Assembly: GCA_001784175.1 (NCBI GenBank)
Contig: MFPR01000004.1
Location: 62,001-126,000 of the forward strand
DNA: 64,000 nt
From: Candidatus Lindowbacteria bacterium RIFCSPLOWO2_12_FULL_62_27
GTDB taxonomy: Bacteria > Lindowbacteria > 2-12-FULL-62-27
Direction of reading: 5' to 3'
Positions 2-9,219 of this stretch are shown here, one piece after another. The number at the start of each line of letters is the position of its first letter. The first letter of the stretch is position 1. Under the pieces are notes generated by a model. The model saw only the letters and a list, made by a program, of their open reading frames with translations. It did no database searches and had not been told where the DNA came from. A program made the translations under genes and the position numbers.

Positions 2-580
2 GCGGCCGTGCAGTTTCCGCTGTCGACCACGCCGGGATTTTTCGGCATGGGCGCCGTCCTGTCGCCGTCCAATATATGGCATTGGAAGGCGGACATTCAG
101 GCGGACATCGATCTCCGAAAGGCGGACCACCGGCGCCGGGACGTCGAAACCGCCTATCCCAACATGGCGGCCGACGCGTATCCGTTTTTGGGCAAGGATT
201 GGAGCGGCGCCGCGCATGACGACCGGCGGCGGCCCGCAAAAGATTATGACGACCCCGCGTTCCTCACGGCCTGGGCGGCCGACAATCCCCTCGCCGATCC
301 CGAACGGAAAAGTCCCTGCACCGAATACAACGCCGAAGGACCCGGCAGCCTGACGGTCCAGCCGCATGGCCATCAGAGCATCAACGGCGCCGGCGTCTGG
401 CGCGGCGGCGTCTGGACGCTCGTGCTCCTGCACGAGCTGCACTCCGGCGACGAGATGGACGCGATGTTCACGATGGGCGACGAGCGGCCGGTGGCGTTCG
501 CGATCTGGGACGGCGCCGCCGGCGACCGCGACGGCCAGAAGGTCGTGTCGCAGTGGCACAAGATGGTGCTGCGGCCGTGA
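2..580 (+). CDS. NxrC-like / ethylbenzene-dehydrogenase-type heme b gamma subunit (5' truncated by window edge)
   Basis: The reading frame is open to the first base, so the gene starts upstream; about 192 C-terminal residues are visible. They show the EBDH-related heme-binding fold: a VQFP strand, an FFGMGA loop whose Met matches the family's heme-ligand Met, an IWHWKAD strand, and C-terminal strands VWTLVLLHEL and VAFAIWDG followed by SQWHKMVL, whose Lys is a candidate second ligand. In this family the subunit is periplasmic and passes electrons between the beta subunit and a cytochrome partner. It lies just upstream of the catalytic and Fe-S subunits, with only one short gene between. Its stop overlaps the next start (GTGA), so it belongs to the operon. 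Residue roles are inferred from the family; the missing N-terminus hides the export signal. Confidence 0.85.
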   Translation, partial: AAVQFPLSTTPGFFGMGAVLSPSNIWHWKADIQADIDLRKADHRRRDVETAYPNMAADAYPFLGKDWSGAAHDDRRRPAKDYDDPAFLTAWAADNPLADPERKSPCTEYNAEGPGSLTVQPHGHQSINGAGVWRGGVWTLVLLHELHSGDEMDAMFTMGDERPVAFAIWDGAAGDRDGQKVVSQWHKMVLRP

Positions 581-1503
581 AATCCGAAATCCGTAATCTG
601 AAATCCGCACAGCCGTGTCCGTTGGTCACCTACGACCCGGCGCTGATCGAGGCCCTCGTCCGGTCGAAGGTCGATGCGGCGGCGGACGCGGATCAGAGCT
701 GGATCAACGCCTACCGGGACGAGCTGGACGACATCTATGAGCGCAGCCCGGAAGAGCGCGAATCGCTCTTCGCCTCCCTGGATCGCCGCTATTTTCAGCG
801 CGTCGGCATTCCGGCGATTGTGGAGGAGTGCCTTGCGGAGCGCGCCGGGGCGCTGCCCAAAACATGCAATGTGACCATGCTGTCGGCACAAGACCGGTCG
901 GAAGAGGGCGCGGACGTAAACCGCGCCGGCCAGATGATCCTGCGCTTCCGGACCGCGACGCTGGCCGACTCGGAAAAATTTCGGCGGCGGCTGCGCAGGG
1001 AGATTGTCCAGGCGGCCGATTGTTTCAACCCGGAATTCGGCCATGCCCCGGAATTGCTGGACGCGCTGCTTCCATCCGAAAGAGAGCGCATCCGCGCGGC
1101 CCTGACCCTGCTCTGGGCGCTGACGGCGCAGATTCGGCTCTGCGCCGAGGAACCGTTGAAGACCGGCGCAACCGCGCAGGTTGAGAAAGAACGCCTGGAC
1201 CGGCTGGCCGCGGATCTGCGCGCCGCGCTGTGCGGCGACGCCCATGCGCCGCTGGCCGAACTTCTCCAGGACCTCCCGGCTCGGCCGCCGGCCTTCGGCC
1301 GGATGCTTGAGTTTTGCCGCCGGCACGCGGGCTCGGAGGCCGCGGCCTCCGGCATCTGCGATCTCTGCCGCTTTCCCTCCGAGGACGTTCAGACGTTGAG
1401 CGTCCTGCCGGACAACGTCCGCCGGGCGCTGACAGCGGAATTTACGTCACTCCAAAATATGTCACACGTCTGCGCACGCTGCGCCGAACGGTCCGCGATA
1501 TGA
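577..1503 (+). CDS. Unknown protein with C-terminal paired CxxC motifs, inside the molybdoenzyme operon
   Basis: About 308 residues, not recognised. The first two thirds are helical and charged, with no signal peptide or membrane segment. The end carries CDLC (C261/C264) and CARC (C299/C302) separated by 34 residues, which looks like a zinc ribbon or treble clef. A GTG at 577 overlaps the upstream stop (GTGA) and is preferred over the GTG at 553, which would overlap 28 nt. The gene in turn overlaps the catalytic-subunit start (ATGA), so it is translationally coupled on both sides. Placement suggests a cytoplasmic maturation factor for the molybdoenzyme, comparable in position to accessory proteins such as FdhE; that is inference. 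Its first codons consist of a dispersed repeat (peptide KSEIRNLKS) also found in the aconitase gene. Confidence 0.8.
   Translation: MKSEIRNLKSAQPCPLVTYDPALIEALVRSKVDAAADADQSWINAYRDELDDIYERSPEERESLFASLDRRYFQRVGIPAIVEECLAERAGALPKTCNVTMLSAQDRSEEGADVNRAGQMILRFRTATLADSEKFRRRLRREIVQAADCFNPEFGHAPELLDALLPSERERIRAALTLLWALTAQIRLCAEEPLKTGATAQVEKERLDRLAADLRAALCGDAHAPLAELLQDLPARPPAFGRMLEFCRRHAGSEAAASGICDLCRFPSEDVQTLSVLPDNVRRALTAEFTSLQNMSHVCARCAERSAI
580..606. repeat. AAATCCGAAATC-type repeat at the start of the zinc-finger-like unknown
   Basis: AAATCCGAAATCCGTAATCTGAAATCC lies exactly between the gamma-subunit stop and the body of the next gene, and is translated as KSEIRNLKS. It resembles the acnA element at 60254-60292 in both sequence and reading frame. 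Confidence 0.7.
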
Positions 1504-4500
1504 CCTGGTCCGTATCCCGCCGCGCGTTCCTCCAGGCCGGCAGCCTCGCCGCGCTCCTCGCCGCCTGCGGCAAATCCAATCTCCGCCAGCTCAAAGGCAT
1601 CGTGGGCGTCGAGAACCCGCTCGAATATTATCCGGAACGCGGCTGGGAAAAAGTCTATCGGGACCAGTACCGGTACGACCGTTCCTTCACCTACGTGTGC
1701 TCTCCGAACGACACCCACGCCTGCCGCGTGCGGGCCTTTGTTCGAAACGGCGTGATCGTCCGCGTCGAGCAGAATTACGACATCCAGAATTACGCCGACC
1801 TCTACGGCAACAAGGCCACGCGCAACTGGAACCCGCGGATGTGCCCCAAGGGCATGACGTTCCCCCGCCGCGTCTACGGGCCCTACCGCCTCAAGCAACC
1901 GCTCATGCGGAAGGGCTGGAAGGCATGGGCGGACGACGGCTTTCCGTATCTGACGGCGGCGCTTCGGACCAAATACAAATTCGACAGCCGCGGCGCGGAC
2001 GAATTTCTGCGCGTGTCGTGGGACGAGGCGTTTGGATACGCGGCGCGCGGATTCGTGGCGATCGCGAAACACTACAGCGGCGACGGAGGCCAGCGGCGGC
2101 TTCTGTCCGAGGGATACGCGCCGGAGATGGTGCGGGCGATGGAGGGCGCGGGAACGCGCACGATCAAGACCCGTGGCGGGATGGGCCTCCTCGGCGTCAT
2201 CGGCAAATACGGCATGTACCGCTTCTGCAACACGCTGGCCTTGGTCGACGCGCACGTGCGCGGCGCGGACAGGGAACACGCCAAGGCCGGCCGCGTCTGG
2301 GACAATTACACCTGGCACGGCGATCAGGCCCCGGGCCACCCCTTCGTCCACGGCATCCAGACCTCCGACTGCGATTTCAACGACCTCCGCTTCACCAAAC
2401 TGCACATCCAGTGCGGCAAAAATCTCGTCGAAAACAAAATGCCCGACTCCCACTGGTTCATCGAAACCCTCGAACGCGGCGCCAAGATCGTCGTCATCAC
2501 GCCCGAGTACAGCCCGCCGGCCACCAAGGCCGATTACTGGATCCCGATCCGGCCCAACAGCGACACGGCACTCTTCCTGGGCATCACCAAACTTCTCATC
2601 GACGGGAAAAAATATGACTCGCGATTCGTCAAACGCCACACCGATTTCCCCTTGCTGGTCCGGACCGACACGCTCACCCGCCTCAAGGCCGCGGACGTTT
2701 TCCCCGGCTACAAGAACCGCGATCTTCACGGGGGGCCCAGCTACGAAGTCCAGGGCCTGACGGACGATCAGCGCGAGAAACTGGGGGATTATGTGGTCTG
2801 GGATTTGAAGCGAGGCGCGCCGGCGCCCGTCACGCGGGATGACGTCGGCGGAGTCTATGACAAACTGGGCGTCGACGCGGCCTTGGAGGGAAAATTCGAC
2901 GTCACATTGACGGACGGCCGCAGCATCCAGGTCATGCCGCTGTTTGAGATGTACAAGGTACACCTCCGCGATTACGATCTCGACAGCGTCCATGAAATGA
3001 CCAACGCGCCCAAGGAACTCGTGCGGCGGCTCGCCGACGACATCGCCACCATCAAACCGGCCGCCGTCCATGTCGGCGAAGGCATCAACCACTGGTTCCA
3101 CGCAACGCTCGTCAACCGCGCGACGTATCTGCCGCTCATGCTGACCGGCAACATCGGCCTTCCCGGCGCCGGGTCGCATACGTGGGCGGGAAACTACAAG
3201 GCCGCGAATTTCCAGGCGGCGCCGTGGTGCGGCAAGGGATTCAAAACATGGATCGCGGAGGATCCCTTCGAGCCGAACCTCGATCCGAACACGGACGGCA
3301 AGGACATCCACGTGCACTCCTACACCCGCGACGAGGCGGTCGCCTACTGGAACCACGGCGACAAACCCCTGGTGGTCGACACGCCGAAATACGGCCGGAA
3401 AATGTTCACCGGAAAATCACACATGCCGACGCCCACCAAGGCCATCTGGTACACGAACGTCAATCTCATCAACAACGCCAAATGGGCCTACGAGATGATC
3501 AAGAACGTCGATCCCAAGGTCGACATGATCCTGTCGAACGACATCCAGATGACGGCAAGCATCGAATACTCGGACTTCGCCTTTCCGGCCAATTCGTGGT
3601 GCGAGACGAAGACTGCCGAGATCACCAACTCCTGCTCGAATCCTTTCCTCCAGATCTGGAAGGGCGGCATCGAGCCGCTCTATGATTCGCGCGACGACGT
3701 GATGATCCTCGCGGGCATGGCCAAGGCCGTCGGCGACGCGATCGGCGACAAGCGGTGCGAGGAGTACTGGAAATTCGCGCTGGAAGGCCGGCCGGAGGTG
3801 TATATTCAGCGGCTCCTCGACGCGTCCTCCACCCTGCGCGGCTACAAATACGAAGACATCATGGCCGGAAAATACGGCGAGCCCGGCGTGTGCCTCATGC
3901 TGTACCGGACGTACCCGCGTATTCCGTTTTACGAGCAGGTCCACGAGGACCATCCGTTCTGGACCGACACGGGACGCCTGAACGCCTACTGCGACATTCC
4001 GGACGCGATCGAGCACGGAGAAAATTTCATCGTCCACCGGGAAGGACCCGAGGGGACGCCCTACTTGCCGAACTGCATCGTAAGTTCGAATCCGTTCATC
4101 CGGCCGGACGATTTCGGCATCCCCGAAACCGAAATGCACTGGGACGCGCGGCATGTCCGCAACATCAAAAAGCCGTGGCCGCAGGTCGTCCGCACCGTGA
4201 ACCCGCTCTGGGCCCGGGGATACCGCTTTTTCTGCCTGACCCCGAAAACCCGCCACCGCGTCCATTCGCAGTGGAGCGACACCGACTGGAACCTCATCTG
4301 GGACTCGAATTTCGGCGACCCGTACCGCGCCGACAAGCGAATGCCCGGTGTGGGCGAGCACCAGCTTCACATGAACCCGCAGACCGCGCGCGACCTCGGG
4401 ATCAACGACGGCGACTACGTCTACGTCGACGCCAATCCGGCCGACCGGCCCTACATCGGCTGGAGCCCGACCGACCCGTTCTACCGCGTGGCGCGACTGA

Positions 4501-4961
4501 TGCTGCGCGTGAAATACAATCCGGCCTATCCGTACCACACGGTCATGATGAAACACGCGCCGTACATTGCGACCGAGCGCAGCGTCAAGGCGCACGAGAC
4601 GCGGCCGGACGGCCGGGCGCTGTCGGCCGGCACCGGATATCAGGCCAACCTTCGATATGGCTCCCAGCAGTCGATCACGCGCTCCTGGCTCATGCCGATG
4701 CACCAGACCGACACGCTGTTTCACAAAACCAAAATCGGCATGGCGTTCATGTTCGGCGGCGAGGCCGACAACCACATGATCAACACGACGCCCAAGGAAA
4801 CGCTCGTCAAGATCACCAAGGCCGAGCCCGGCGGGATCGGCGGCAAGGGCATCTGGGCGCCGGCGACCTCCGGGTTCACGCCGGGCAACGAAAGCCCGGC
4901 GATGCTGTCCTACCTGACCGGCGACCTGACGAAGGTTCAAGGGGGCGGCAACCATGCCTGA
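1500..4961 (+). CDS. nxrA: Type II DMSO-reductase-family catalytic subunit, nitrite oxidoreductase/nitrate reductase (NxrA)-like
   Basis: About 1153 aa, the size expected for NxrA of the Nitrospira/anammox clade. A Tat signal (SRRAFLQ, R7-R8) is followed by a hydrophobic stretch ending in a lipobox-like LAAC (C23), so the protein may be an exported lipoprotein. The N-terminal Fe-S region has C67-S-P-N-D-T-H-A-C75 and later C115 in NPRMCPKG, the arrangement I recall from NxrA rather than from classic NarG. Many further stretches (TWHGDQAPG, KLHIQCGKNLVENK, GEGINHWFHATL, GSHTWAGNYK, GTGYQANLRYGSQQSITR) also match the NxrA pattern as I remember it. It should bind bis-MGD molybdenum and an [4Fe-4S] cluster and act on nitrite/nitrate in the periplasm. 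The direction of catalysis cannot be read from sequence, and related enzymes occur in non-nitrifiers. The start ATG overlaps the upstream stop, and the 3' end overlaps nxrB by 8 nt. Confidence 0.88.
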   Translation: MTWSVSRRAFLQAGSLAALLAACGKSNLRQLKGIVGVENPLEYYPERGWEKVYRDQYRYDRSFTYVCSPNDTHACRVRAFVRNGVIVRVEQNYDIQNYADLYGNKATRNWNPRMCPKGMTFPRRVYGPYRLKQPLMRKGWKAWADDGFPYLTAALRTKYKFDSRGADEFLRVSWDEAFGYAARGFVAIAKHYSGDGGQRRLLSEGYAPEMVRAMEGAGTRTIKTRGGMGLLGVIGKYGMYRFCNTLALVDAHVRGADREHAKAGRVWDNYTWHGDQAPGHPFVHGIQTSDCDFNDLRFTKLHIQCGKNLVENKMPDSHWFIETLERGAKIVVITPEYSPPATKADYWIPIRPNSDTALFLGITKLLIDGKKYDSRFVKRHTDFPLLVRTDTLTRLKAADVFPGYKNRDLHGGPSYEVQGLTDDQREKLGDYVVWDLKRGAPAPVTRDDVGGVYDKLGVDAALEGKFDVTLTDGRSIQVMPLFEMYKVHLRDYDLDSVHEMTNAPKELVRRLADDIATIKPAAVHVGEGINHWFHATLVNRATYLPLMLTGNIGLPGAGSHTWAGNYKAANFQAAPWCGKGFKTWIAEDPFEPNLDPNTDGKDIHVHSYTRDEAVAYWNHGDKPLVVDTPKYGRKMFTGKSHMPTPTKAIWYTNVNLINNAKWAYEMIKNVDPKVDMILSNDIQMTASIEYSDFAFPANSWCETKTAEITNSCSNPFLQIWKGGIEPLYDSRDDVMILAGMAKAVGDAIGDKRCEEYWKFALEGRPEVYIQRLLDASSTLRGYKYEDIMAGKYGEPGVCLMLYRTYPRIPFYEQVHEDHPFWTDTGRLNAYCDIPDAIEHGENFIVHREGPEGTPYLPNCIVSSNPFIRPDDFGIPETEMHWDARHVRNIKKPWPQVVRTVNPLWARGYRFFCLTPKTRHRVHSQWSDTDWNLIWDSNFGDPYRADKRMPGVGEHQLHMNPQTARDLGINDGDYVYVDANPADRPYIGWSPTDPFYRVARLMLRVKYNPAYPYHTVMMKHAPYIATERSVKAHETRPDGRALSAGTGYQANLRYGSQQSITRSWLMPMHQTDTLFHKTKIGMAFMFGGEADNHMINTTPKETLVKITKAEPGGIGGKGIWAPATSGFTPGNESPAMLSYLTGDLTKVQGGGNHA

Positions 4962-6258
4962 CGTCTACAACTGGCATCTCGGCCGGAAAATGTCGTATCC
5001 ATACGAGGAGGCGCATCCGCGCCGGCAGTTCGCGTTCGTGTTCAACATCAACCGCTGCATCGCCTGCCAGACCTGCACGATGTCCTGCAAGTCGACATGG
5101 ACATTCTCCAAGGGCCAGGAATACATGTGGTGGAACAACGTCGAAACAAAACCCTACGGCGGCTACCCAAAATTCTGGGACGTCAAACTCCTCTCAATGC
5201 TCGACGCCGCCAATCCCGGCGGGCAGGTGTGGGACGCGGCGGTCCAAAATGGCCCGTCGAAACCGTACGGTCTCTTCAACGGCATGACCATTTTCGAAGC
5301 GGCCCGAAAACAGTTCGGCCCCGCCGGCCACAATCACGCGATCGGATTCATCCCCGACGAAGAGGCATGGCGCGGCCCCAACCACGGCGAGGACGCGGCG
5401 GTCACGTTCGAGGACAGCTACCGCAAGGCCAGCGCGGCCCGCCCGATCTCGGCCGAAGGATCCGCCCTGCCGGAACACCGCACCTGGTTTTTCTATCTTC
5501 AGAGGCTGTGCAATCACTGCACCTACCCGGCGTGCCTCGCGGCCTGCCCGCGAAAGGCGATCTACAAACGCGAAGAGGACGGCATCGTGCTGATCGACCA
5601 GGAACGCTGCCGCGGATACCGCAAGTGCGTGGAGGCCTGCCCCTACAAAAAGCCGATGTACCGCGGCACCACGCGGGTTTCGGAAAAATGTATCGGATGT
5701 TATCCGCGAATCGAGGGCAAGGACCCCATTTCAGAGGGCCGCCCGATGGAAACCCGCTGCATGACCGCCTGCGTCGGCCAGATTCGTCTCCAGGGTCTGG
5801 TGAACATTGACGAAAAAACGGGCTTGTGGGCCAACGACCGCCAGAATCCCATCTACTATCTCGTTCACGTCGAAAAAATCGCCCTCCCGCTCTACCCGCA
5901 GTTCGGGACGGAACCCAACGGGTACTACATCCCGCCGCGATGGGTGCCCCGGCCGTACCTGAGGCAGATGTTCGGCCCGGGCGTCGACGCCGCGATTGAA
6001 AAATACGTCGCACCGAACCGCGAACTCCTCGCGGTCCTCCAGTTGTTCCGCAAACATCAGGACATCGTCTTCCGATACGAGATCGAGGAGGGGAAGAAAG
6101 TCTACGAGCGGGAAATCGACTACCGCGGCCGGAAAATCCCGTTCACGCTCTACAACGACACCGTCATCGCCTTCGACGCGGCCGGCAAGGAAATCTTCCG
6201 CACGGCCGTCGAAGAACCCATCCACGTCCGGCCGGCGAAACACTCCAATTCGGTCTGA
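4954..6258 (+). CDS. nxrB: Fe-S electron-transfer subunit, NxrB/NarH-like
   Basis: About 434 aa, close to the roughly 430 aa of Nitrospira-type NxrB. Four ferredoxin-like cysteine groups are visible: C35-x2-C38-x2-C41-x3-C45; CNHCTYPACLAAC; CRGYRKCVEAC, where a Tyr occupies the second-Cys position as expected for a [3Fe-4S] site; and EKCIGC with TRCMTAC. The WWNNVETKPYGGYP and EPNGYYIPPRWVPRPY segments are hallmarks of this clade. There is no signal peptide, as expected for a beta subunit co-exported with its Tat-bearing alpha partner. It would carry electrons from the molybdenum subunit to the heme b gamma subunit. The start overlaps the nxrA stop by 8 nt (ATGCCTGA). Confidence 0.92.
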   Translation: MPDVYNWHLGRKMSYPYEEAHPRRQFAFVFNINRCIACQTCTMSCKSTWTFSKGQEYMWWNNVETKPYGGYPKFWDVKLLSMLDAANPGGQVWDAAVQNGPSKPYGLFNGMTIFEAARKQFGPAGHNHAIGFIPDEEAWRGPNHGEDAAVTFEDSYRKASAARPISAEGSALPEHRTWFFYLQRLCNHCTYPACLAACPRKAIYKREEDGIVLIDQERCRGYRKCVEACPYKKPMYRGTTRVSEKCIGCYPRIEGKDPISEGRPMETRCMTACVGQIRLQGLVNIDEKTGLWANDRQNPIYYLVHVEKIALPLYPQFGTEPNGYYIPPRWVPRPYLRQMFGPGVDAAIEKYVAPNRELLAVLQLFRKHQDIVFRYEIEEGKKVYEREIDYRGRKIPFTLYNDTVIAFDAAGKEIFRTAVEEPIHVRPAKHSNSV

Positions 6259-6259
6259 C

Positions 6260-6955
6260 ATGGAAAACGCCATCCGCTCCGCCCATCTTCGCACCGCCGT
6301 CTACGAATTGTTCGGACGGATTCTGTCCGCGCCCGATCCCGAACACGGCCGGCGCGCCCTTCAAATCGCGTTCACCCTCGGGCGCATCGAGAGCCTCCCG
6401 GCCGGGTTGCGGCGCCGGTTCGGCGAATTCACCGACACCCTCGCCCGGCTGGGACTCAACGAAATCGAGCGCGACTGGCAGGAAACGTTCGGCCTGACCG
6501 ACGGAGGGCCCTTCAGCCTCTGCGAGAGCGAGTATGGCATGGCGCACATTTTTCAAAAATCCAACCGGCTGGCCGACATCTCCGGATTCTACAGGGCGTT
6601 CGGCGTGGAGCCCCGGGCCGGCGCGGAGCGCCCGGACCACCTGAGCGTCGAGTTCGAGTTCCTTTCGTTTCTGGCCGCCAAGGAGGCCCACGCTCTGTTG
6701 GAGAACAGGACGGACCGCGCCGAAGTTTCACGCGAGGCCGAACGGATGTTTTTGTCTGATCACACAGGCCATTTCTGCGTGGGACTCTTCAAGCGATTGG
6801 TGGACGGCCAGGGATTCTATGCCTCCGTCAGCCGGCTCGGCTTGGAGGCCATCGAGTGGATATTCTCTCAACTGAGCATCTCCGAGCCCTGCCAAGCCGC
6901 GCTCGCCGGCGCGATGGGTCCCGAAGAACCCATGCAATGCGGCGGCTGCAGATGA
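6260..6955 (+). CDS. TorD/NarJ-family molybdoenzyme chaperone (NxrT-like)
   Basis: About 231 aa, helical and soluble. It contains the family signature PDHLSVEFEFLSFLAAKEA in the middle and an EYGMAHIFQKS segment typical of TorD/DmsD-like proteins. Such chaperones bind the Tat leader of the catalytic subunit, hold it for cofactor insertion and prevent early export. It begins one base after the nxrB stop and its own stop overlaps the next gene, so it is translated with the enzyme it most likely serves. The C-terminus ends in CGGCR, a small CxxC-like tail that is unusual and could bind metal or may simply be incidental. Confidence 0.88.
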   Translation: MENAIRSAHLRTAVYELFGRILSAPDPEHGRRALQIAFTLGRIESLPAGLRRRFGEFTDTLARLGLNEIERDWQETFGLTDGGPFSLCESEYGMAHIFQKSNRLADISGFYRAFGVEPRAGAERPDHLSVEFEFLSFLAAKEAHALLENRTDRAEVSREAERMFLSDHTGHFCVGLFKRLVDGQGFYASVSRLGLEAIEWIFSQLSISEPCQAALAGAMGPEEPMQCGGCR

Positions 6956-7227
6956 AAAATCTCGATCCGGAGGACCCCTTCAGCCTGACCGGTCACGCGG
7001 TGGCGCTCAGCGCCGAAGAGGCGGAAGAACACTTGATCGAAATGACCGATACGATCATCCACGAGTTCACGCTCCTCGGCTGGACACCGGAGAGAATACT
7101 CGGCATGTTCAATAATCCGTTTTATCGCATGCCGCACGAGATTCTCCGCAGCCGTGGCGCATCGTTCGTTCAGTCCCGCATGGCCGCGGTCACAGGAATC
7201 GACCTTACAGAACTTGTTACGAATTAA
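6952..7227 (+). CDS. Small unknown protein, last gene of the molybdoenzyme operon
   Basis: 91 aa, not recognised. It is acidic at the N-terminus (DPEDPFSLTGHAVALSAEEAEEHL) and then predicted helical; it has no cysteine, signal peptide or membrane segment. The ATG overlaps the stop of the chaperone gene (ATGA), which is the main evidence that it is real. About 155 nt without a gene follow before the NnrS-like gene, so it probably ends the transcript. By position it could be an assembly or regulatory partner of the enzyme, but nothing in the sequence proves that. Confidence 0.75.
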   Translation: MKNLDPEDPFSLTGHAVALSAEEAEEHLIEMTDTIIHEFTLLGWTPERILGMFNNPFYRMPHEILRSRGASFVQSRMAAVTGIDLTELVTN

Positions 7228-7383
7228 GACAACTTGTCCGCCTGCCCGACCGAAGACCAGTTCGACAACCTTCAGATAATCAATCCGTTAAAATAAGTTC
7301 ACGCCCCTCCCATCCTTTGGAATACGCTTTGCAGACTCTCTCTCTTGGCTTGTTTTTTTAGACACACGAGGAGGCGACCGCAG

Positions 7384-9219
7384 GTGTATCGAAAGACGGG
7401 GATCACGTCGGACATGACGGTGAGAGAAATACTCAAAATGTTCCCGGCAAGCCGCGCCGTATTTGACAAGTATGGAATGATGGGGTGCGGTGGAGCGGAG
7501 GGACCGGCGGAACCGGTGTCATTTTTTGCCGAGATGCACGGGCTCACCACGGCGGAACTTCTGTCGGAGCTTCGAAGCGCCCTGCAATCGAACGGCGACC
7601 CCTGCCGTTGCGGGCCTGCGGCCGCAGGCGATATTTCGCCTCGCGCGGCGGGATTGCTTTCGGCCCCTGATCCGAATCCAGAAGGCTCCAAATGCACGCA
7701 CGGCGATCAATCCAAACGGTTGGCGAGGACGTTCATCCGGACGGCCCTCGTTGTTTTTCTGGCCTATGGCGGCGCCGTGGGCGCGTGGGCGTTCCTCTCT
7801 CTGGTAACGCCTGGCGTTTCTCTTCCCTCGGTCCTGACGTGGCCGGCGCTGGTGCAATCGCATGCACACGCGCAAATCGTCGGCTTCGCGGCGATGTTCA
7901 TCTTCGGCATTTCCTATCACGTCATGCCGAGATTCATGGGCGTGCCCCTTCAAAATGTCGCGGCCGCATGGGTCTCCTTCGGTCTGCTTCTCGGAGGAAT
8001 GATCCTGCGATGCCTGTACCAGCCTTTCGCGCACCACACGGCGGCCGGCGTCACGGCGCTTCTCGGGTCGGCCATGGAGGTGGGCGCGGCGGTTGCATAT
8101 CTGACCGTGGTCCGCGCGACCCTGCGGGAACACAAGCGGACTTTGGCGCCCGGCAGGGCAGGCCAGCCGTTCGTTCACGTCGCGTATCTGATCATCGGAA
8201 GCCTCGCGCTGCTGGCCTCCACGCTCGTGGTCCTCGCCGGGTCCGTGTTCATGCTCGTCCGGCAGGTCAACCTCCAACCGCCGCATCTTAATATGGTATG
8301 GATCCATCTCTCGGTCGTCGGATTCGCCGGGATGTTCATCTTCGGCGTCGGCCAGCGCACGATGCCCCATTTCCTCGGGCTCGAACACACCCGCCCGGCC
8401 GCCGGCAAGGCGGCGCTGGTGCTCTTGACCATCGGCCTCCTTTTACAGATTGCAACGCTCGCGATCCCGGCGCAAAAAATTCTCTCGGCCGGCTCGGCGC
8501 TCTTTGAGCTTGCCGGATTCATTTTTGTCTTATTGGCGGTGCCGCTCTTCGGTCGTCTCCCCGTCCATCGGCCGGCGGCGCCGCCTCTTTTTGCCTTATT
8601 CGTCCGTACCGCCTTCGCGTGGGGATTGGCGGGCAGCGCCGGCTTCGCGGCCGTCGCCATCGCCGAGGCCGCCGGCGCCGTGCCTTCGAGAGTGATCGTC
8701 GACGCCTGCCGCCACGCATGGACGCTGGGATTCATGACAACGCTGATCGTCGGCGTCGCCTACCGCCTCGTGCCGATTTTTTTCGGAAGGGAAATCCATC
8801 GGCCCGGCTGGATCCCCGTGATTTACGCCGTCCTCACGGCGGCCGTGGCAATCCGTGTCGGCGCGGATATCGCGTCCCTGTGGGCGCCCGCCGTCTATCC
8901 CTGGACGGCCGTCTCCGGCCTGCTGGTTCTCTCGGCTGTGTTACACTTCACCATCGAAATCTGGAGGCTGACCGCCCGCGACCGTGCGGCCGCCGACCTG
9001 CCGCGCGGCGAAATCAGCGACGCCTCCAACGTCGGTGCGGTGCTCGAAGCCCATCCGGAACTGTTACCGGTGTTCCTCCGCCATGGCTTTGGCGCCCTTC
9101 AGAATCCCGTCGCCCGCAAGACCGTCGCGCGGTTCGTCACGATCGGCCAGGCGGCCCGGAAACACGGCGTCGACACTGCACACCTCATCCACGAACTCAA
9201 CAGCGCGCTTCAGCCGTAG
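7384..9219 (+). CDS. DUF1858 - NnrS-like membrane protein - DUF1858 fusion
   Basis: About 611 aa. Residues ~1-65 are a DUF1858/ScdA-N-like domain (TVREILKMFPASRAVFDKYGM, then CGG). A long hydrophobic core of about a dozen helices follows, and residues ~545-610 form a second DUF1858 copy (VGAVLEAHPELLPVFLRHGF). The core contains three copies of one motif, H-x4-GF-x3-(F/L)I-x-G-x5-(M/V)P-x-F-x-G, at residues ~160, ~306 and ~442. This fits NnrS, a heme/copper-binding membrane family linked to nitric oxide stress. GTG at 7384 is chosen because GAGGAGG lies ~9 nt upstream; the longer TTG start at 7345 lacks a ribosome site. Placement behind a nitrite/nitrate enzyme fits a role with reactive nitrogen species, which is inference. 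Confidence 0.85.
   Translation: MYRKTGITSDMTVREILKMFPASRAVFDKYGMMGCGGAEGPAEPVSFFAEMHGLTTAELLSELRSALQSNGDPCRCGPAAAGDISPRAAGLLSAPDPNPEGSKCTHGDQSKRLARTFIRTALVVFLAYGGAVGAWAFLSLVTPGVSLPSVLTWPALVQSHAHAQIVGFAAMFIFGISYHVMPRFMGVPLQNVAAAWVSFGLLLGGMILRCLYQPFAHHTAAGVTALLGSAMEVGAAVAYLTVVRATLREHKRTLAPGRAGQPFVHVAYLIIGSLALLASTLVVLAGSVFMLVRQVNLQPPHLNMVWIHLSVVGFAGMFIFGVGQRTMPHFLGLEHTRPAAGKAALVLLTIGLLLQIATLAIPAQKILSAGSALFELAGFIFVLLAVPLFGRLPVHRPAAPPLFALFVRTAFAWGLAGSAGFAAVAIAEAAGAVPSRVIVDACRHAWTLGFMTTLIVGVAYRLVPIFFGREIHRPGWIPVIYAVLTAAVAIRVGADIASLWAPAVYPWTAVSGLLVLSAVLHFTIEIWRLTARDRAAADLPRGEISDASNVGAVLEAHPELLPVFLRHGFGALQNPVARKTVARFVTIGQAARKHGVDTAHLIHELNSALQP

Follow-up and report, generated by a model that had tools for sequence, protein, structure and literature searches.

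The window, by which we mean the whole stretch of 64,000 nucleotides under study, corresponds to positions 62001-126000 of contig C4 in a 4.39 Mb assembly (94% complete, 1.09% contaminated). Its positions 2-7227 hold the 3' portion of a collinear operon whose genes are tightly coupled, in the order nxrC, a gene of the zinc-finger/HExxH type, nxrA, nxrB, a TorD-type chaperone gene and a small-protein gene, with the following features:

2..580, + strand: 3' part of nxrC, gamma subunit with EB_dh haem-b domain (PF09459, Cytochrom_C; PDB 6h5l_B and 7b04_C; Met/Lys ligands)
577..1503, + strand: gene of a conserved NXR-cluster protein with a CxxC/CxxC zinc-finger-like C-terminus (recurrence in NXR loci; motifs)
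1500..4961, + strand: nxrA, catalytic molybdenum subunit, 1153 aa (PDB matches, tree, residues, Tat signal and lipobox)
4954..6258, + strand: nxrB, iron-sulfur subunit, 434 aa (PDB match, Pfam, tree)
6260..6955, + strand: TorD/NarJ-type assembly chaperone of DMSO reductase family type II enzymes, 231 aa (PF02613; TIGR03482 below cut-off)
6952..7227, + strand: gene of a small helical protein, 91 aa (homologues shortly after nxrA in other phyla)

The first-pass annotation had described genes resembling those of nitrite oxidoreductase (NXR), joined by overlaps of 1-8 nt or a gap of 1 nt, and both the genes and their junctions are as it described them. The nxrC stop (580) and the GTG start of the next gene (577) overlap by 4 nt, as do the zinc-finger-type gene stop (1503) and the nxrA ATG (1500), and the torD stop (6955) and the ATG of the small gene (6952); the nxrA stop (4961) overlaps the nxrB ATG (4954) by 8 nt, and 1 nt separates the nxrB stop (6258) from the torD ATG (6260). 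The gamma gene that it listed is present but cut by the window edge: the whole nxrC is a 513-aa frame starting at G000:C4:61039, so that its first 961 nt, with the diheme cytochrome c half, lie upstream of the window.

Over its whole length, NxrA shares about 67% identity with the structurally solved NXR-A of Kuenenia (PDB 7b04; 1880 bits), its weaker PDB matches being PcrA (214 bits), EbdA (153) and NarG (about 105). For NxrB, the match to Kuenenia NXR-B scores 635 bits and that to PcrB 214. As homologues of each operon gene also recur next to nxrA in loci from many phyla, these scores place the match of the operon far beyond chance. A 30-row NxrA tree, built like the larger one without EbdA or SerA and without rows named as Nitrospira or Nitrospina, whose position therefore rests on the literature, places the window protein inside a 20-row NXR clade including PDB 7b04 and Brocadia (support 100/100), with ClrA, PcrA, NarZ and the haloarchaeal enzymes outside. 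The larger, quick tree recovered a 49-row NXR clade including the window protein (SH-aLRT 100), and the NxrB tree agrees with the NxrA tree at the clade level. The assignment to NXR proposed at first reading is thus upheld, the alpha subunit falling with Kuenenia and Brocadia and not with ClrA, PcrA or NarG.

The active-site residues lead to the same assignment. The tested set, taken from residues named as NXR-specific in PMC8387239 and PMC12300631, comprised Asp275 (Mo ligand), Asn70, the FS0 ligands (3Cys and Asp71), Asn312, Glu527 and Lys917. In Kuenenia numbering, the window NxrA has C67, N70, D71, D275, N312, E527 and K917, identical to NXR in 7/7 cases, while NarZ, ClrA and PcrA differ from NXR at positions 67, 71, 312 and 527. 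The envisaged loss of NXR residues was not seen, all the tested NXR-versus-NAR positions being NXR-type. The two motifs previously cited as NXR hallmarks, CSPNDTHAC in alpha and WWNNVETKPYGGYP in beta, are both present, but CxPNDTH cannot identify NXR by itself, as a sister clade of about 43% identity has CAPNDTHNC and yet differs at positions 312 and 527. This second NXR-like clade, with Thr312 and Met527 (loci L022/L085 at G001:C365:4973-8425, L020/L089, L021 and L078), also occurs in haloarchaea, and a TGA was reported within the open frame of one copy in the metagenome-assembled genome (MAG) G001. The N-terminus of NxrA, MTWSVSRRAFLQAGSLAALLAAC, carries the Tat motif SRRAFLQ, and NxrB starts with MPDVYNWHLGRKMSYPY, without signal. 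On its sequence, the operon is a genuine periplasmic NXR operon of the Nitrospira/anammox type, of predicted activity.

The gamma subunit is not of the soluble NxrC type found in Kuenenia. The N-terminal half of NxrC is a diheme c-type cytochrome with 6h5l_B as closest solved relative, and its C-terminal part is an EB_dh haem-b domain closest to 7b04_C, in which the Met/Lys haem-b ligands are kept (M340 and K504 of the open frame, the counterparts of M155 and K305 in the Kuenenia protein). We take 6H5L to be the anammox Kustc0457/0458 complex; a kinship of the diheme half with Kustd1711 was considered and dropped, the PDB match being 6h5l_B and Kustd1711 having a different “nose” architecture. 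No EB_dh protein other than this fusion was found in the genome, and hence no canonical single-domain soluble NxrC; since this trait varies within the NXR group, its absence is treated as a variant trait which does not exclude membership. Anammox loci encode two proteins: besides the canonical NxrC there is a diheme fusion that ends in a transmembrane helix at its C-terminus, a helix that the window NxrC does not have. In the NxrC tree the window protein groups with fused NxrC encoded in NXR operons outside the anammox bacteria and is separated from the two anammox types (SH-aLRT 95), which, considering the long branches of this tree, indicates with moderate confidence a separate third NxrC clade common to non-anammox NXR operons. 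Nitrospina and Nitrospira were reported to have alternative NxrC proteins that carry two c-haem sites, to which no definite role was assigned (PMC3578206, PMC6606698). The present operon, with such a fusion as its sole gamma subunit, suggests that proteins of this kind may be true NXR subunits.

Regular expressions identified a lipobox in NxrA (ALLAAC, after the Tat motif) and another in the N-terminal half of NxrC (FVSAC). Because both proteins have such motifs, membrane anchoring by lipid is predicted and is the probable mode of attachment for alpha and gamma, the lipidation being a pattern-based prediction. Among the NxrA sequences compared, the pattern matched solely in the three rows of the Lindowbacteria family; some Acidobacteria NxrA have a Cys near the end of the signal which does not fit it. 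The operonic NxrC of several other phyla likewise match a lipobox.

The protein encoded at 577-1503 has no Pfam match; most of its homologues (L036, L058, L042 and others) have HELMH (HExxH) plus CxxC/CxxC, and HExxH is replaced by RExxQ in 3/3 copies of the Lindowbacteria family, which suggests a lost zinc site. Its AlphaFold model (pLDDT 89) gave weak zincin-like matches, and an FdhE-like identity gained no support, Foldseek returning nothing at E<=0.001. The torD product matches the NCBIfam type II chaperone model TIGR03482 below its cut-off. The product of 6952-7227 is all-helical, about 90 aa long with a DP...FxxPFY core, and has homologues in L026, L025, L032, L057, L061 and L064; no known fold matched it. 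Directly downstream of the operon, 7345-9219 encodes a membrane protein whose two ends carry DUF1858 domains and whose middle resembles NnrS/COX1; it may have a link to NO or nitrite stress, and no homologue of it was seen beside NXR in the other NXR loci compared. Elsewhere on the contig, an 844-aa fusion of radical SAM/SPASM and arsenite-methyltransferase-like (ArsM) parts is encoded two genes upstream of nxrC (C4 56780-59311; L009 4780-7311). The stretch at about 30.1-33.4 kb (L011 218-3514) encodes a large subunit resembling that of arsenite oxidase, with a TIGR02693 match that narrowly misses the cut-off, and after it a diheme cytochrome sharing about 40% identity with the diheme half of NxrC.

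The presence of nxrA extends to 3/3 examined genomes of the phylum Lindowbacteria. The nearest NxrA are those of the two other genomes of the phylum, a Lindowbacteria MAG (90%) and a groundwater MAG (89-90%), with the same gene order in the family relatives where contigs reach, and the next-nearest is from non-anammox Planctomycetota (77%). A literature search of limited depth found no earlier report of NXR in Lindowbacteria; NXR-like genes in Planctomycetota MAGs have already been reported (PMC10732223). The operon is thus a known enzyme, of predicted function, in a new phylum host and with a variant gamma subunit.

The genome encodes two aa3-type cytochrome c oxidase subunits I and a CoxB, a NapA above the NCBIfam cut-off, and NrfHA; NirK was not found in it. 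NapA comes right after cytochrome c oxidase genes and is followed by two tetrahaem proteins (C4 at about 13.2-19 kb; L010 3176-8970). Oxidases are present in G001, which also has a broken-looking syntenic NapA near its oxidase genes, and no haem-copper oxidase was found in G002 (81% complete). Carbon fixation was searched for through three markers: RuBisCO and acetyl-CoA synthase (CdhC), neither of which was found in this 94% complete genome by searches whose control worked, and ATP-citrate lyase, not found by a Citrate_bind search of the genome run without positive control. With neither RuBisCO nor acetyl-CoA synthase found, the markers tested do not point to a classical autotrophic nitrite oxidiser, and with a separate NapA, nitrate reduction is a less pressing role for NXR. 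This gene set fits a metabolically flexible organism that could perform nitrite oxidation with O2 or nitrate/nitrite reduction.

We consider it likely that the operon encodes a periplasmic, Tat-exported and reversible NXR of the Nitrospira/anammox type delivering electrons via the fused NxrC to an oxidase, its activity and electron path being deduced from the genes. The Mo-bis-MGD site of NxrA would convert nitrite to nitrate, and the electrons would pass from FS0 (3Cys/1Asp) through the NxrB clusters to the Met/Lys haem b in NxrC, then to the two c-haems of the same polypeptide and from there to a c-type oxidase (aa3). The enzyme could also reduce nitrate when donors are plentiful; Kuenenia NXR works both ways (PMC8387239). 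Regarding the net direction, we lean towards facultative nitrite oxidation with O2 as an energy source. More tentatively, as a proposal we hold to be possible but still doubtful, Lindowbacteria may be non-autotrophic nitrite oxidisers whose lipid-anchored NXR would rely on a gamma subunit of a third kind, in which haem b and diheme c are combined in one protein encoded by the operon and wired straight to cytochrome c oxidase, in replacement of the soluble NxrC. If so, a phylum without detected carbon-fixation markers would join the possible groundwater nitrite oxidisers.

The most serious competing explanation retains the NXR-type enzyme and reverses its role: in a heterotroph that does not oxidise nitrite, it would act in vivo as a nitrate reductase supplying nitrite to NrfHA for ammonification. 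The presence of NrfHA, which fits nitrate/nitrite reduction, and the genome G002 without detected haem-copper oxidase both count against an oxidative direction, and no carbon-fixation marker was found. Moreover, the Vmax of Kuenenia NXR is higher for nitrate with methyl viologen than for nitrite with ferricyanide, two assays whose artificial partners differ (PMC8387239). However, the genome already possesses NapA and two aa3-type oxidase subunits I, and heterotrophy is compatible with mixotrophic nitrite oxidation; we regard this explanation as a real possibility falling short of probable. A DMSO reductase type II enzyme acting on chlorate, perchlorate, selenate, dimethyl sulfide or ethylbenzene and merely resembling NXR is very improbable: the fold and subunit plan are common to type II enzymes, an EB_dh gamma domain is typical of them and there is a sub-threshold match to the NCBIfam type II model, but NxrA lies inside the NXR clade at 100/100, shares 31% identity or less with ClrA and PcrA, keeps all the tested NXR-specific residues and scores 1880 bits against Kuenenia NXR-A, compared with 214 for PcrA and 153 for EbdA. 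An arrival of the operon in this genome by misbinning or contamination, making it uninformative on the lineage, could be suspected from the multi-contig assembly and an operon GC of 0.63 against 0.59-0.61 in nearby DNA, but it is slightly less probable still, because the contig is long (507,730 bases) and copies 89-90% identical, with the same gene order as far as the contigs extend, exist in two other genomes of the family, the contamination estimate being 1.09%.

To our knowledge, virtually all biological nitrate formation is due to NXR, and the predicted nitrite-oxidising reading of this operon is best appreciated against the systems already described. The most remote are the chlorate reductase ClrABDC and the perchlorate reductase PcrAB, DMSO reductase type II enzymes which share with the window the alpha/beta plan and a chaperone, ClrC being moreover a gamma subunit encoded in the Clr operon as in the window NXR. 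Their ClrA and PcrA are only 25-31% identical to the window NxrA and fall outside the NXR clade; their FS0 ligand pattern is H...C where the window has C...D, and in those sequences that could be read position 312 is T and position 917 is H. Much closer are the NXR-like genes of non-anammox Planctomycetota, KSB1, Acidobacteriota, Tectomicrobia and other MAGs (66-77% NxrA identity), many of whose loci share with the window the operonic diheme NxrC, the zinc-finger gene, TorD and the small gene. They differ by belonging to other phyla, by their gene order, by an NxrA in which no lipobox was matched and by HExxH, which is mostly kept.

Kuenenia stuttgartiensis NXR-ABC (PDB 7b04, kustd1700/1703/1704) resembles the window enzyme in NxrA (about 67%), NxrB, the tested catalytic and FS0 residues, and the Met/Lys haem-b domain of its gamma subunit. 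In contrast to Kuenenia, the window gamma subunit includes a fused diheme cytochrome c and falls in a different NxrC clade, and both NxrA and NxrC have a lipobox. The Kuenenia enzyme is a soluble one that assembles into tubules together with NXR-T (PMC8387239). The fused ORFs of the Brocadia nxr cluster combine diheme and haem-b parts as the window NxrC does; however, they have a C-terminal transmembrane helix and coexist with a canonical NxrC, neither of which applies to the window protein, the first gene product of an nxrAB operon, its sole gamma subunit and a member of a separate clade. The alt_NxrC1 of Nitrospina and the alt_NxrC_2 of Nitrospira likewise have, as in the window, a type II haem-b domain and two c-haem sites, and the electron exit from NXR and its membrane attachment are open questions in these organisms (PMC3578206, PMC6606698). 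A diheme fusion as sole gamma subunit, together with the predicted lipid anchors, would offer a concrete and testable answer to both.
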